A stretch of DNA of 64,000 nt from Actinopolymorpha singaporensis (GTDB lineage Bacteria; Actinomycetota; Actinomycetes; Propionibacteriales; Actinopolymorphaceae), in contig NZ_LT629732.1 in NCBI RefSeq assembly GCF_900104745.1, positions 4,513,981-4,577,980 of the forward strand, given 5' to 3'. The stretch's first letter is position 1. Every line of letters starts with the position of its first letter. Under the pieces are notes generated by a model, which made no database searches, was not told where the DNA came from, and was given only the letters and a program-made list of their open reading frames with translations. This document shows positions 3,151 to 25,538 of the stretch, in pieces. The translations under genes and the position numbers were made by a program.

Positions 3151-4304
3151 TCTTCTTTCTGGTATTAGCGATCCTCGTGGTCGTCGTCCTGGCCAGGTCG
3201 GTCCGGATCATCCCGCAGGCGCGGGCCGGCATCGTCGAGCGCCTGGGCCGGTTCGCCCGCACCCTGGGGCCCGGCCTGTCGATCATCGTCCCGTTCGTCG
3301 ACAAGGTGCGATACACCATCGACCTGCGTGAGCAGGTGGTCTCGTTCCCGCCGCAGCCGGTGATCACCGAGGACAACCTCGTCGTCTCCATCGACACGGT
3401 GATCTACTTCCAGGTGACCGACCCGGTGGCCGCGACCTACGAGATCGCCAACTACATCCAGGCGATCGAACAGCTCACCATGACCACCCTGCGCAACATC
3501 GTCGGTGGCATGGACCTCGAGCGGACCCTGACCAGCCGCGAGCAGATCAACACCGAGCTGCGCGGCGTCCTCGACGAGGCCACCGGCAAGTGGGGTGTCC
3601 GGGTCAACCGCGTCGAGCTGAAGGGCATCGACCCGCCGCCCTCCATCCAGGACTCGATGGAGAAGCAGATGCGCGCCGACCGCGACAAGCGGGCCGCGGT
3701 CCTCACCGCGGAGGGCGTCCGCCAGTCGGCGATTCTCACCGCCGAGGGTGAGAAGCAGAGCGCGATCCTCACCGCCGAGGGTGAGAAGCAGTCGCAGATC
3801 CTGCGTGCACAGGCGCAGCGGGAGTCGCAGATCCTGCGGGCCCAGGGTGAGGCACAGGCCATCGAGACGGTGTTCAACGCCATCCACGAAGGCGAGCCCG
3901 ACCAGCGCCTGCTGTCCTACCAGTACCTCCAGATGCTGCCGAAGATCGCCCAGGGCGACGCGAACAAGCTGTGGATCGTCCCCAGCGAGATCGGCAAGGC
4001 GCTGGAGGGCATCGGCTCGATGGTCGGCAAGTTCGCCGAGGAGGGTGAGACCCCGCCGGCACGTCCGGCCGACGGCATCCGCCGCCGCACGCCCAGACCC
4101 GAGGTCACCGCGGCGGCGGTCGAGGCCGAGGAGGCCACCGACACCGCCCTGCAGGACGCGGAGTCGGAGGTGCAGGCGGCGATCGCCGCTGCCGAGGACG
4201 CGGCCAAGGGCGGCCTGGGCGGGCGGCGCCAGCAGGAGACCGGGACCAACGGGGATTCGGCGGGACCGGCGCAGCCGGCCGCGCAGGAGCCCCGGCCGGA
4301 GTGA
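3138..4304 (+). CDS. SPFH/Band 7 (stomatin-like) protein
   Basis: A 388-residue protein with one N-terminal membrane helix (residues 3-20), the prohibitin/stomatin core (VERLGRFARTLGPGL, then DLREQVVSFPPQPV), and a long helical segment carrying near-identical repeats ILTAEGEKQSA and RAQ/GEAQA (about 190-240). An acidic Ala-rich tail of about 95 residues follows, longer than in typical QmcA proteins. GTG start at 3138 with GGAG seven bases upstream, overlapping nfeD out of frame. It probably scaffolds membrane microdomains and protects membrane proteases or transporters. Confidence 0.93.
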   Translation: MAPLIFFLVLAILVVVVLARSVRIIPQARAGIVERLGRFARTLGPGLSIIVPFVDKVRYTIDLREQVVSFPPQPVITEDNLVVSIDTVIYFQVTDPVAATYEIANYIQAIEQLTMTTLRNIVGGMDLERTLTSREQINTELRGVLDEATGKWGVRVNRVELKGIDPPPSIQDSMEKQMRADRDKRAAVLTAEGVRQSAILTAEGEKQSAILTAEGEKQSQILRAQAQRESQILRAQGEAQAIETVFNAIHEGEPDQRLLSYQYLQMLPKIAQGDANKLWIVPSEIGKALEGIGSMVGKFAEEGETPPARPADGIRRRTPRPEVTAAAVEAEEATDTALQDAESEVQAAIAAAEDAAKGGLGGRRQQETGTNGDSAGPAQPAAQEPRPE

Positions 4305-21631: not shown

Positions 21632-21892
21632 TCATCCCCTGCGGTTGTGGGCGCCCGTCGTGAGCAGCCGTTCACCCTTGCTACGAACGTCTGCGCCCCG
21701 ATCCGACACCGTCTCCCGGACTGCTTTCAGGAACCTTCTGGTGCGAACTCCCGGGAAGCGGCTCGTGAGCGATCCGAGACCGACGTTATCCGGCTTCGGC
21801 CGGAACGCGCGCCGGGCCCGCTCGAGCCGGTGGGCCTGCTCCGCCCTGATCAGGTCCGGGGTCAACCGTGTACTGAAAATGATGTGCCTCAC
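21632..21892 (-). CDS. possible small ORF upstream of the YCII gene
   Basis: An 86-codon frame beginning at GTG 21892 (VRHIIFSTRLTPDLIRAEQA...) and ending eight bases before the YCII start, on the same strand and downstream of the distal ECF42-type promoter. It is rich in Arg and would contain the proximal promoter. I know no family for it, its codon use is not clearly coding, and it has only a weak ribosome site. Treat it as tentative. Confidence 0.25.
   Translation of the reverse strand: MRHIIFSTRLTPDLIRAEQAHRLERARRAFRPKPDNVGLGSLTSRFPGVRTRRFLKAVRETVSDRGADVRSKGERLLTTGAHNRRG
21680..21708 (-). promoter_or_regulatory. proximal ECF42-type promoter
   Basis: On the minus strand TGTCGG (21708-21703), 17 bases, then CGTAGC (21685-21680). 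It points to the YCII-sigma pair, about 55 bases ahead of the ATG. It lies in a 63-bp segment (21673-21735) that is a diverged copy of 21928-21987. Confidence 0.55.
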
Positions 21893-21934
21893 CTCGGTGG
21901 TTCTGGCGCCTCTCGTAGGCGGCCTCGCACCATT

Positions 21935-21963
21935 GCGACGAACATCCCGGGCGGGATTCGACA
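21935..21963 (-). promoter_or_regulatory. distal ECF42-type promoter
   Basis: Minus strand TGTCGA (21963-21958), 17 bases, CGTCGC (21940-21935). This matches the published ECF42 pattern (TGTCGA and CG[AT]C, recalled from the literature) better than the proximal copy and has identical spacing. Confidence 0.55.
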
Positions 21964-22048
21964 CGTCTCCCCGGACTTTCAGGGACCGGGCTGGTGAAGA
22001 GGGGTCGGTGACGGGGGAGAGGCGGGCAGATCTCACGTTCATGGGCGT

Positions 22049-22064
22049 CCATGACGCGTCATGG
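22049..22064. repeat. perfect 16-bp palindrome
   Basis: CCATGACGCGTCATGG equals its reverse complement. It lies 244 bp from dif in the non-coding stretch. No adjacent promoter or gene start explains it. Confidence 0.8.
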
Positions 22065-22199
22065 CGTACTTCTGCGTTATGCGACGTGGATGGTCGCTCG
22101 GCCCGGACGGTGCGGGATGGCTGGACGTCGCGCTCGGCCACGAAGAAGACGGAGGCAGTGATGTCGTGTCGGCGCGGCCACGAGGGTTCCGCCAGGCGC

Positions 22200-22225
22200 G
22201 GCGTACGTGGGCGTCCACGTACGCC
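22200..22225. repeat. inverted repeat with 11-bp arms
   Basis: GGCGTACGTGG, four bases, CCACGTACGCC: a perfect stem that could fold as a hairpin or bind a dimeric protein, 83 bp from dif. Confidence 0.8.
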
Positions 22226-22307
22226 GGTGAGTGCCCACGCCAGCAGGGATTTCGCATCCGAGCGCGAGGCTCGGGCAGAGGAGAGGGTCGGGGCACCAGC
22301 GTCCGTC

Positions 22308-22335
22308 GGTTGACATAATGTTCATTATCGGCGTT
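22308..22335 (-). other. dif: probable chromosome dimer resolution site dif
   Basis: Read on the minus strand, the 28-mer has core CCGATAATGAACATTATG and ends GTCAACC. Compared with the actinobacterial dif consensus as I remember it (TTSRCCGATAAT-VN-ACATTATGTCAAGT, in two parts), 24 of 28 positions agree and the four mismatches are the outermost two at each end. Both XerC- and XerD-arm cores and the central hexamer spacing are intact. It lies in a gene-poor stretch, as dif usually does. XerC/XerD would recombine here with FtsK at the terminus. Confidence 0.85.
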
Positions 22336-22766
22336 CTACCAGGATGGCTCAGGACGGCCGAGAGGGGCTCCGGACGACGGGCCCGGAGCGCTCCATGCAG
22401 CACCCGAGCTTCGCACTGCCGGCTCTCCACTTCGGCAGACCGCGCCGTACGTTCCGCCCGTGTTTCCCTGCGTGCTTCCGCTGACGACGCCTGCCGCCTG
22501 TGCGTTCGAGTCGTCCGTACACGAACGCCGACGGACGGGCCGTGGACAGGACTCACCGGATTTGGCCCGGGTTCGGCGGCGTCGGCGGTGCGGCCCCGGC
22601 GAAGGCGCCGAACCCCGGCCTCGGCGGGCCCCCGCCTGCAGACCACGCGGATCATGGCCGCCAGCGACTTGGTGACGCCGCGTAGCGACAACGCATCCGA
22701 GGCGGCGCCAGGCATGCCCGTGACGGAATGTCGAGGGCGGAGATCGGACCGTCACACGATCGAATT

Positions 22767-22796
22767 CATGTCGTGTAATAGCACTTACACGACATG
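22767..22796. promoter_or_regulatory. 12-bp-arm inverted repeat directly before the recombinase gene
   Basis: CATGTCGTGTAA, six bases (TAGCAC), then the exact reverse complement TTACACGACATG. It ends 14 bases before the ATG of the tyrosine recombinase. Two ~12-bp inverted arms around a 6-bp spacer is the geometry of a tyrosine-recombinase core site; it could equally be an operator controlling the gene. Confidence 0.7.
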
Positions 22797-22810
22797 GTAG
22801 GTTCTGGGCC

Positions 22811-23872
22811 ATGAGTGAGCCGAAATCGGTGTCGACAGTGACCGTGCACGATGCCGTGCTGGAGTATCTCGAGGTGCTCGAGCGGCGCGTCATGCGTTCC
22901 CAGCTCAGCCCCGCCACTCTGCACGCCTACCGCCGTGACCTCATCGACTTCACCACTCTCCTGGGCCCCGACACGGTGCTCGACTCCATCGAGGCCGACC
23001 AACTGGAAGTCGCGTTGACGGCCATCGCCAGGGCGCCCGATCGCCGTTACACGAAGGGCCTGAAGATCGCCGAGGACGGCTCCACTCCCCCAGGTCGCGG
23101 CCAGCACCTGCTGGCGCGCTGGTTCGCCGCCGTACGCGGGCTGTTTCGCTGGGCCACCGACAAGGGTTACGTCCAGGTCGATCCCACCACCCGGGTGGCC
23201 GCGCCGCGTACGCCGCGGAGGGCTGCCGGTTCCCGGCTCGGGCTTCGGGTCGACGAGGCGCTGGTGCTGCGGGCTTCGCCGAGCCGACGGGCACAGGAAC
23301 CCCTGCGCGCCGACCAGAAGCTGTCCGTCCGCGACGAGGCGATCCTGCGGCTCCTGGTCGAGTCGGGCCCACGGGTGTCGGAGCTGTGCGGCGCCAACCG
23401 CAGCGACATCCGGTTGCACGAGGAAACCCGCACGCCGGTTCTGCACGTACGCGGAAAGGGCGGCAAGACTCGCGACCTGCCGCTGTCGCCGGCGACCTTC
23501 AGGACCATCGAGAGGTACCTCGCCGAGGAGCGTCCGCCGCCCCCGCAGCCGACGTCCCTGGACCGCGCGGAGCGCATCAGGGTCGAGGACGCGGCCAGCG
23601 CGTTGTTCGTCTCCGTACGCGGGAAGCGGCTCTGTCCACGTGATCTCCAGCGGATGGTCGAGCGCTACACCAAGGGGTACCTCGGCCGCCGGGCGACACC
23701 GCACGCTCTTCGGCACACCGCGCTGACCGTGCTGGCCCGGGCCGGGGTGGACATCGCGACGGTCGCCCAGATCGCCGGCCACTCCAGTCTGGCCACGACG
23801 TCTGTCTACATGGACGAATCGATGAGTGCCGCTGCCGAGGCCATCGACAGCTCGCCCCTCGCCGCCGACTGA
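22811..23872 (+). CDS. tyrosine recombinase (XerC/XerD-like)
   Basis: A 353-residue recombinase, longer than XerC/D (about 300). An N-terminal SAM-like domain (about 10-130) includes QLSPATLHAYRRDL and RGLFRWATDKGYVQVDPT. The catalytic set is complete: R188 (GPRVSEL), K219 (GKGGKT), H298-x-x-R301 (HALRHT), H324 (GHSS) and nucleophile Y333. It lies 475 bp from the dif site and directly behind a perfect inverted repeat. It may be a third Xer-type enzyme or a remnant integrase. No phage or conjugation genes are nearby. ATG at 22811. Confidence 0.93.
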   Translation: MSEPKSVSTVTVHDAVLEYLEVLERRVMRSQLSPATLHAYRRDLIDFTTLLGPDTVLDSIEADQLEVALTAIARAPDRRYTKGLKIAEDGSTPPGRGQHLLARWFAAVRGLFRWATDKGYVQVDPTTRVAAPRTPRRAAGSRLGLRVDEALVLRASPSRRAQEPLRADQKLSVRDEAILRLLVESGPRVSELCGANRSDIRLHEETRTPVLHVRGKGGKTRDLPLSPATFRTIERYLAEERPPPPQPTSLDRAERIRVEDAASALFVSVRGKRLCPRDLQRMVERYTKGYLGRRATPHALRHTALTVLARAGVDIATVAQIAGHSSLATTSVYMDESMSAAAEAIDSSPLAAD

Positions 23873-24566: not shown

Positions 24567-24986
24567 TCAGCGAACCTCCTGGATGCGGACCATGTTGCCC
24601 GCGGGGTCCCGGAAGGCGCAGTCGCGTACGCCGTACGGCTGGTCGGTCGGCTCCTGGACGACCTCCACGTCGCCCGACTGGATCTTCTCGAACGTGCCGT
24701 CGAGATCCTTGGTTGCCAGCAGGATCCAGCCGTAGGTGCCCTTGGCCATCATCTCCGAGACGGTGCGGCGCTCGTCCTCGGTGATGCCCGGGTCGGCGAA
24801 CGGCGGCGCCAGCAGGATCGAGGTCTCGGGCTGACCGGGCGGGCCGACGGTGATCCAGCGCATGGTGCCCTGTCCGACGTCCTGGCGGACCTCGAAGCCG
24901 AGCCGGTCGCGGTAGAAGGCCAGGGAGGCCTCCGGGTCCTCGTGCGGGAGGACGCTGGTGTGAATGGTGATGTCCATGTCAGTCAC
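24567..24986 (-). CDS. VOC family protein
   Basis: About 139 residues. A glyoxalase fold with MDITIHTSVLPHEDPEASLAFYRDRLGF at the start (shown in two parts here: THTSV-type first strand, then SLAFYRDRLGF) and CAFRDPAGNMVRIQE at the end. GTG 24986 has GGTGGAG 11 bases upstream; ATG 24977 is the alternative start. It lies between the AraC regulator and the second VOC gene, in one probable operon. Confidence 0.88.
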   Translation of the reverse strand: MTDMDITIHTSVLPHEDPEASLAFYRDRLGFEVRQDVGQGTMRWITVGPPGQPETSILLAPPFADPGITEDERRTVSEMMAKGTYGWILLATKDLDGTFEKIQSGDVEVVQEPTDQPYGVRDCAFRDPAGNMVRIQEVR

Positions 24987-24991
24987 GCTAA

Positions 24992-25429
24992 CTACGGCTC
25001 CACCAGCCGTGCTTCTTGATTCCTGATCGGTCTGGTCACCTGTTTTGCGACACACGCCGGCAGCTGCGCACTCCCCTGTGCCGCCGCGCGTTTGTAGACG
25101 CTGGGCGGCATACCGACAAGTTCTGCGAATCGGGTACTGAAGGTGCCCAGCGACGCGCAGCCGACCGCGAAGCACACCTCGGTGACGCTGAGATCACCGC
25201 GCCGCAGGAGTGCCATCGCCCGCTCGATGCGCCGGGTCATCAGATAGCCGTACGGCGACTCTCCGTAGGCCTGCCGGAACTGCCGGCTCAGGTGTCCGGC
25301 GGACATGTGCACGCCACGGGCGAGCGCCTCGACGTCCAGTGGCTGGGCGTACTCGCGGTCGATCCGGTCGCGGACGCGGCGGAGCAGGGCGAGGTCGCGC
25401 AGGCGCTGCTCGGACGGGGTGTTGCTCAC
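24992..25429 (-). CDS. AraC family transcriptional regulator
   Basis: A 145-residue protein that is essentially only the double helix-turn-helix DNA-binding domain: helix-turn-helix 1 in DVEALARGVHMSAGHLSRQF and 2 in VTEVCFAVGCASLGTFSTRF, with the conserved PSVYKR end. It lacks a ligand domain. It ends five bases before the first VOC gene, so it probably regulates its own operon. Start at GTG 25429; a longer start at 25471 is possible. Confidence 0.9.
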   Translation of the reverse strand: MSNTPSEQRLRDLALLRRVRDRIDREYAQPLDVEALARGVHMSAGHLSRQFRQAYGESPYGYLMTRRIERAMALLRRGDLSVTEVCFAVGCASLGTFSTRFAELVGMPPSVYKRAAAQGSAQLPACVAKQVTRPIRNQEARLVEP

Positions 25430-25538
25430 GTTCGAGATCCTGCCATGCCGGGCCGCGCCGGGCGGCTCCACGTCGGCGTCACCAGCCCGGTCGGGTGCCC
25501 GGTTCGCCAGGCTCGGGCCGCTTTGCCCGGCCGGGCTG

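Follow-up and report, generated by a model that had tools for sequence, protein, structure and literature searches.

The window, a stretch of 64,000 nucleotides from the chromosome of Actinopolymorpha singaporensis (contig NZ_LT629732.1, positions 4,513,981 to 4,577,980), contains an intergenic gap of 1,135 bp between a gene for a YCII-domain protein and a gene for an Xer-like tyrosine recombinase (Table 1). Two short elements were located in this gap, namely, a dif-like 28-mer and a palindrome designated site A, which precedes the recombinase gene, designated type A. The gap was the seventh longest according to a rough ORF filter, which misses real genes, e.g., the Pfam-supported ORFs at 24567-25471. 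An earlier note on this DNA had covered dif alone, placing it in the largest gene-poor stretch of the window, and the adjacent recombinase and site A go beyond it.

Table 1. Features of the dif locus, in window coordinates.
Feature	Position	Strand	Sequence or size	Basis
Intergenic gap, YCII-domain gene to recombinase gene; contains dif and site A	21676..22810	.		
Polarity-change interval of GGGGGAG (convergence zone)	22013..23085	.	1.07 kb	Best single switch
dif	22308..22335	-	AACGCCGATAATGAACATTATGTCAACC (28-mer)	Core search, shuffles, relatives, polarity switch
Parts of dif		-	XerC-side arm AACGCCGATAA, centre TGAACA, XerD-side arm TTATGTCAACC	
Site A, 30-bp palindrome	22767..22796	+	CATGTCGTGTAA-TAGCAC-TTACACGACATG, 12-6-12	Conservation, symmetry
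Type A Xer-like tyrosine recombinase	22811..23872	+	353 aa	Pfam Phage_integrase

The 28-mer is almost certainly a canonical XerCD/dif site, of the kind found on actinobacterial chromosomes. A dif-like element of 28 bp on the minus strand, as claimed in the earlier note, was confirmed at this position, and none of 100 dinucleotide-preserving shuffles of the window matched it at up to 3 mismatches. When the single-contig genome of 6,403,569 bp was searched with the 18 specified bases of the dif core, allowing up to 3 mismatches, this was the only match, in line with the expectation of one dif per genome. A dif-like core was present in all 97 genomes searched from the genus, family, and order, the own genome included, and extra matches with 2–3 mismatches were found in some of them. 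The two arms were named XerC side and XerD side by a presumed analogy with E. coli dif. The agreement at 24 of 28 positions given in the earlier note was reproduced by eye against the dif of Frankia alni, as it appears in the part of Kono et al. (2011; PMC3025954) used here. However, the differences were at positions 1, 14, 27, and 28 and not at the two outermost bases of each end, which indicates that the consensus used in the earlier note was slightly different.

The chromosomal position of dif was 4,536,290. As dnaA was located at 1,202,028 and five perfect parS copies at 1,193,546–1,198,940, with an antipode at approximately 4.40 Mb, the offset of dif was 132 kb, i.e., 7.4 degrees, and dif was thus roughly opposite oriC, as had been proposed. 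The mean GC skew was +0.012 and -0.013 for the two arms divided at dif (66 samples, 1.30 Mb, 33 per arm). The skew was noisy, and the samples just before dif (4.44–4.53 Mb) were already negative. Since GC skew alone could not finely place the switch, strand-biased words were learned instead from 45 samples, all outside 4.15–4.90 Mb. The strongest strand-biased heptamer was GGGGGAG (139 vs. 24 in the samples). Within the window, where it occurred between 1495 and 62602, the side to the left of dif had seven forward copies and one reversed copy, and all 12 copies to the right were reversed. The resulting interval of polarity change spans dif and site A and extends into the recombinase gene, and the GC skew agreed with it at a scale of approximately 100 kb. 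The polarity was equal at both contig ends, as in a circle. Consequently, the placing of dif at a skew switch and of the window at the replication terminus was borne out by the antipode position and the strand polarity, and the identity of dif was supported by its uniqueness, its position opposite the origin, and the switch of strand composition. GGGGGAG was also strongly polar along the chromosome and could be the FtsK-guiding motif of the genus.

The catalytic residues of the type A recombinase were R188, K216, H298, R301, H324, and Y333. Its scores against the NCBIfam models of XerC and XerD (147 and 123 bits) were below both cut-offs (335 and 330), and its score against XerS (88 bits) was below the cut-off of 267. 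It was distinct from the XerC and XerD of the genome, both of which are encoded elsewhere. The XerD-like protein (L003) scored 340 bits, above the NCBIfam cut-off, and is encoded beside parA-like and ald-like ORFs; the XerC-like protein (L004), for which XerC was the best model at 291 bits, below the cut-off of 335, is encoded beside a dprA-like ORF, these neighbors being named by eye. A structure prediction of the type A recombinase from a 5-row alignment was set aside at a mean pLDDT of 51. The second site was recognized by its conservation and symmetry. Site A has the geometry of an Xer core site and looks like a second, putative recombination site. It occurred once in the window, was matched in none of 100 shuffles, and was single in the genome when both strands were searched with up to 3 mismatches allowed.

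The type A gene adjoined dif in all five other sampled genomes of the genus and in G006 of the same family, and it was absent at the dif of G007. It was present in 10 of 297 Pseudonocardiaceae genomes (9 full-length and 1 fragment), while at the ortholog level the genome of the window was the only one among 396 genomes of the phylum. Distant matches (36–43% identity) in 12 of these 396 genomes were not accepted as members because no convincing dif was present in their loci (matches with 4 mismatches only, in 3) and they fell on the XerC/XerD side of the trees. In all 16 full-length carriers (9 Pseudonocardiaceae and 7 from the own family, including the own genome), dif was 309–1883 bp upstream of the gene, site A began 43–71 bp upstream of the start codon, and dif, site A, and the gene were all within 1.9 kb. 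Moreover, site A was detected in 7 of 13 close genomes, the same 7 with a type A gene beside dif; among the 6 genomes lacking it, the search for the gene covered all but G008 and G011. In the 7 carriers, site A was single and had no second flanking copy in the scan of these 13 genomes, except for 3-mismatch matches in G005 and G006.

When the own genome was compared with G006 or Saccharomonospora NB11 over 9.4 kb on either side, DNA similarity extended from -47/-49 to the end of the gene, and none was found at 1e-5 outside the gene and palindrome. Thus, the shared unit is the site plus the gene. In the own clade (G000, G001, G003, and G004), which formed one group on the gene tree, dif was inverted relative to the type A gene. 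Accordingly, site A was on the XerC side of dif in this clade and on the XerD side in G002, G005, G006, and the 9 Pseudonocardiaceae carriers. The flipped segment is small. A GAGAGGGG stretch was observed on the gene side of dif in both orientations (window 22308-22335 vs. L048 and L051). In the fragment carrier, G698, the expected place of dif was in or near an assembly gap (G698:C46; L079, L158). In this close relative of G651, site A was separated from the recombinase promoter by a 1.1-kb insertion with a lipase-like frame, as judged by eye. The dN/dS of type A was 0.07–0.18 in 9 pairs, and no plasmid match at 1e-30 and no phage match at 1e-20 were found. A link between the module and an altered XerD arm of dif (GTTAA and GTAAA in Pseudonocardiaceae carriers) was considered and dropped, as the same variants were present in non-carriers.

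A different recombinase, designated group K, was found near dif in 13 of 20 Kribbella-like (g5) loci. All 13 loci also had a K palindrome near dif, and neither gene nor palindrome was found in the other 7; the 13 include G068, chosen after its match had already been seen, and the 7 include L179, whose sequence stops, on the side expected for the gene, 60 bp after the dif core begins. No A- or K-type recombinase gene was found in 20 loci of families f2 and f4, which we take to be Propionibacteriaceae and Nocardioidaceae. The K palindrome, TCATGCATAA-n6-TTATGCATGA or its GGATAA or GTGCATAA variant, differs from site A, and a search for its pattern, with up to 2 mismatches allowed, gave no match in 1.2 Mb from the own genome or in 180 kb of f2/f4 loci. 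A second inverted repeat, approximately GTTGCT-n3-AGCAAC, was observed between the palindrome and the K gene in many Kribbella-like loci (L167–L186) and is possibly regulatory.

In Pseudonocardiaceae, a K protein was detected at 1e-60 in 166 of 297 genomes, and the other 131 had no match at this threshold. Among the 150 of the 166 matches listed, 120 were K1 (66–86% identity) and 30 were K2 (50–53%). Among the matches listed, 73 genomes had the K1 gene and dif on the same contig, and the two were at most 7 kb apart in 72 of these and at most 2 kb apart in 58; 74 genomes were in both lists, one of them with the gene and dif on two contigs. In the case of K2, none of 5 genes among the matches listed was within 7 kb of dif, the distances being 143–862 kb, and 6 more were on other contigs. 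In 40 Pseudonocardiaceae dif loci, a set without type A carriers, the palindrome was present in 26 of 26 carriers of the K gene and in none of 14 non-carriers. For 20 of these 40 loci, the outcome had been predicted beforehand, and the palindrome was found in 9 of 9 K2 genomes (including G563 and G690, with unlisted gene position and assigned to K2 by E-value), at 339–512 bp from dif on the XerC side, and in 0 of 11 genomes without K. These 20 stretches, covering 2.5 kb on either side of dif, contained no K or A gene. A palindrome at 344–517 bp from dif was likewise present in four K2 genomes of the initial 20 Pseudonocardiaceae loci, while no palindrome was present at the K2 gene itself in the 10 gene loci read.

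The same separation was observed in G514, where the K gene was 530 kb away, the palindrome was 539 bp from dif, and none was near the moved gene. When 30 further K1 loci were taken around the gene, 28 included dif and all 28 had the palindrome, as did 1 of the 2 without dif in the stretch. In 9 K1 loci with a more distant gene, the palindrome was found in all 9, and in 8 it was 0.3–0.6 kb from dif. The assumption that the K site always stays with dif was rejected on one exception, the K1 genome G744 (L263), where the site was at the gene, following it, 4.2 kb from dif. In every K locus read that contains both, the site was on the XerC side of dif. Overall, the distance between the second site and dif in the loci read was approximately 0.26–4.2 kb and in most cases 0.3–0.6 kb. 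Since the K palindrome was beside dif with the gene often far away, it is more than a promoter operator. No phage match was found for K at 1e-20, and none was found in viral contigs.

A search at 1e-30 detected relatives of K on 59 plasmids, the majority from Mycobacterium and Rhodococcus, with 37–40% identity among the 20 matches listed. Three plasmids were read, all circular and of 127–264 kb, and each had a GGATAA-type palindrome directly above the recombinase gene, that of the Mycobacterium marinum plasmid (L258) being reported only in a reading with an 8-bp centre. A seemingly weaker second copy was noticed by eye approximately 80 bp above the latter palindrome. On circular plasmids, the pairing of a recombinase with one symmetrical site is a usual layout for multimer resolution, and this layout suggested the resolution function proposed below for the module. 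A dif-like 28-mer with 2 core mismatches (L257, ~3508-3535) was located approximately 30–35 bp behind the K-type gene on the plasmid of Mycolicibacterium rufum, and two other plasmids matched part of this stretch at 72–74%. No dif was found at up to 2 mismatches in 2 of the 3 plasmid stretches read (6 kb each), both of which contain the module.

The R-K-H-R-H-Y hexad was intact in all 58 aligned type A, K1, K2, and plasmid proteins. In the tree, K1 was set apart from all other proteins by one branch (support 100/99) and A by another (100/100), and the branch separating A, K, and the plasmid proteins from XerC, XerD, and the 12 phylum matches had a support of 89/91, which is not decisive. In pairwise comparison, K1 was 24.7% identical to A, 29.9% to XerC, and 31.6% to XerD. 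As K was no closer to A than to XerC or XerD, groups A and K may have separate origins and functions. In the tree without XerC, which was used for the own-clade grouping and for the nesting of K1, the Kribbella-like K1 proteins were placed within those of Pseudonocardiaceae.

Taken together, these sequence comparisons suggest that a second resolution system, based on a single recombinase, probably adjoins the canonical XerCD/dif. It would be an independent module, consisting of a dedicated Xer-like tyrosine recombinase and its own palindromic core site, that is kept at the terminus. In a chromosome dimer, two termini would be positioned at the division plane, where polarized motifs converge. 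Four copies of the one recombinase would synapse two copies of its site, and strands would be exchanged twice, yielding monomers. The module would thus work like XerS/difSL or Cre/loxP, beside XerCD/dif rather than instead of it. Like single-recombinase Xer modules, it has a tyrosine recombinase with the R-K-H-R-H-Y residues and a single-copy palindrome of its own near the terminus. However, it does not replace XerCD/dif, because dif and XerC- and XerD-like proteins coexist with it in the genome of the window; the other carriers have dif as well, and the coexistence with XerC/XerD was established in the window's own genome. The action of the recombinase on its site, the resolution of dimers, and the reason for keeping a second system are what we infer from sequence. 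A counterpoint is the patchy distribution, with no module in 20 f2/f4 loci or at G007 and no K in 131 of 297 Pseudonocardiaceae genomes.

The location of site A a short distance upstream of the start codon, where a TATGAT-like -10 box (read by eye) adjoins it in most Pseudonocardiaceae type A loci, would also be expected if only dif mattered, the neighbor being a stray recombinase and the palindrome an operator of its own promoter for autoregulation. The site at the gene in G744, 4.2 kb from dif, fits this as well. We regard it as quite unlikely, because the K palindrome is often beside dif when the gene is at a distance of 1.6–5 kb or 530 kb or is on another contig, and because it is lacking at the moved G514 gene and at 10 of 10 K2 genes read. 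Moreover, the spacing of the type A site to the start codon varies while its sequence is kept, and the insertion in G698 separates site A from the gene. As the site is at its own promoter in the 16 full-length carriers, an operator role could still apply to type A alone.

It is unlikely, too, that a selfish or mobile module, either IMEX-like or derived from a plasmid, entered at or close to dif and has persisted there through drift or its own activity without benefiting dimer resolution. Dif-integrating mobile elements are known, according to the parts of PMC5357621 and PMC9765430 used here. The same module is carried by the plasmid relatives, one of the three read also having a dif-like sequence behind the gene, while group A is found in two orders and the Kribbella-like K1 is nested within Pseudonocardiaceae K1, as expected from transfer. 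However, an integrated element would have two flanking att or dif copies, and one dif and one site A were found here, with no second flanking copy in 7 carriers save the 3-mismatch matches noted above. The lack of phage matches for A and K at 1e-20 and of K in viral contigs, the low dN/dS of type A, and the retention of both gene and site where K2 has separated them also argue against it. The proximity to dif and the constant XerC side of the K site would suit a recombinase that serves as a terminus-marking DNA-binding protein or as a partner of XerC/XerD at dif, with the palindrome as a terminus-setting binding site and not a crossover site. This is very improbable, since the catalytic hexad is intact in 58 of 58 proteins, the side of the type A site varies, and the module occurs without a dif match in two of the plasmid stretches.

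With a second resolution system beside XerCD/dif as the preferred reading, a wider proposal can be made tentatively. Many filamentous actinobacteria may run two dimer-resolution systems at one terminus, the second having been recruited in two or more groups of recombinases, one group being related to plasmid resolution modules, and this may be a living intermediate toward the replacement of XerCD. No description of a second module was found in the literature searched, most subscription journals being outside its scope. The question raised is why one chromosome has two resolution sites. We assume that the carriers, as named or inferred, are mycelial genera and that the f2/f4 families, with 20 loci lacking the module, are mostly unicellular. 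Hyphae with multiple genomes could be the reason for a second system, which we offer only as a lead. A possible application of the enzymes and sites is the excision of markers in these antibiotic producers.

In plasmid multimer-resolution recombinases of the Cre/loxP type, the gene adjoins one symmetrical site. All 3 of the plasmid relatives of K read here share this layout, while the chromosomal copies are instead at the terminus beside dif. The dif of the window is a 28-bp core-site sequence and, as in actinobacterial dif/XerCD in the portion of the literature used here, it is present in a single copy near the skew switch, opposite oriC, in a genome encoding XerC- and XerD-like proteins. It shares the arm-6-arm layout with the F. 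alni dif in the part of PMC3025954 considered, varying only at outer and central bases, and the neighboring module is an addition here. In the sections of PMC5357621 considered, XerS/difSL of streptococci and lactococci is likewise a single Xer-like recombinase of approximately 350 aa directly adjoining its own palindromic site. However, difSL measures 31 bp, of which 11 bp form the centre, and functions in the absence of XerCD, whereas the centre here looks to be 6 bp and XerCD is present together with dif. XerH/difH of Helicobacter and Campylobacter also has a single recombinase (354–362 aa) and a nearby site and, unlike the module here, serves without XerCD (same sections of PMC5357621); the XerH structure was matched weakly by sequence (25 bits). 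XerL/dif of Legionellales, in the part of PMC9765430 considered, has uninterrupted inverted-repeat arms and a gene that may be hundreds of kb away, as in K2, and the copy on a Coxiella plasmid is comparable to the relatives of K on plasmids. XerL/dif is the only such system that this part reports in its hosts, whereas the module here is a second system. XerS, XerH, and XerL replace XerCD in their hosts, and the origin of single-recombinase systems is posed as a question in the review PMC5357621 (parts of PMC5357621 and PMC9765430). A module beside an intact dif, in two recombinase groups and with plasmid relatives, makes this question of origin testable.
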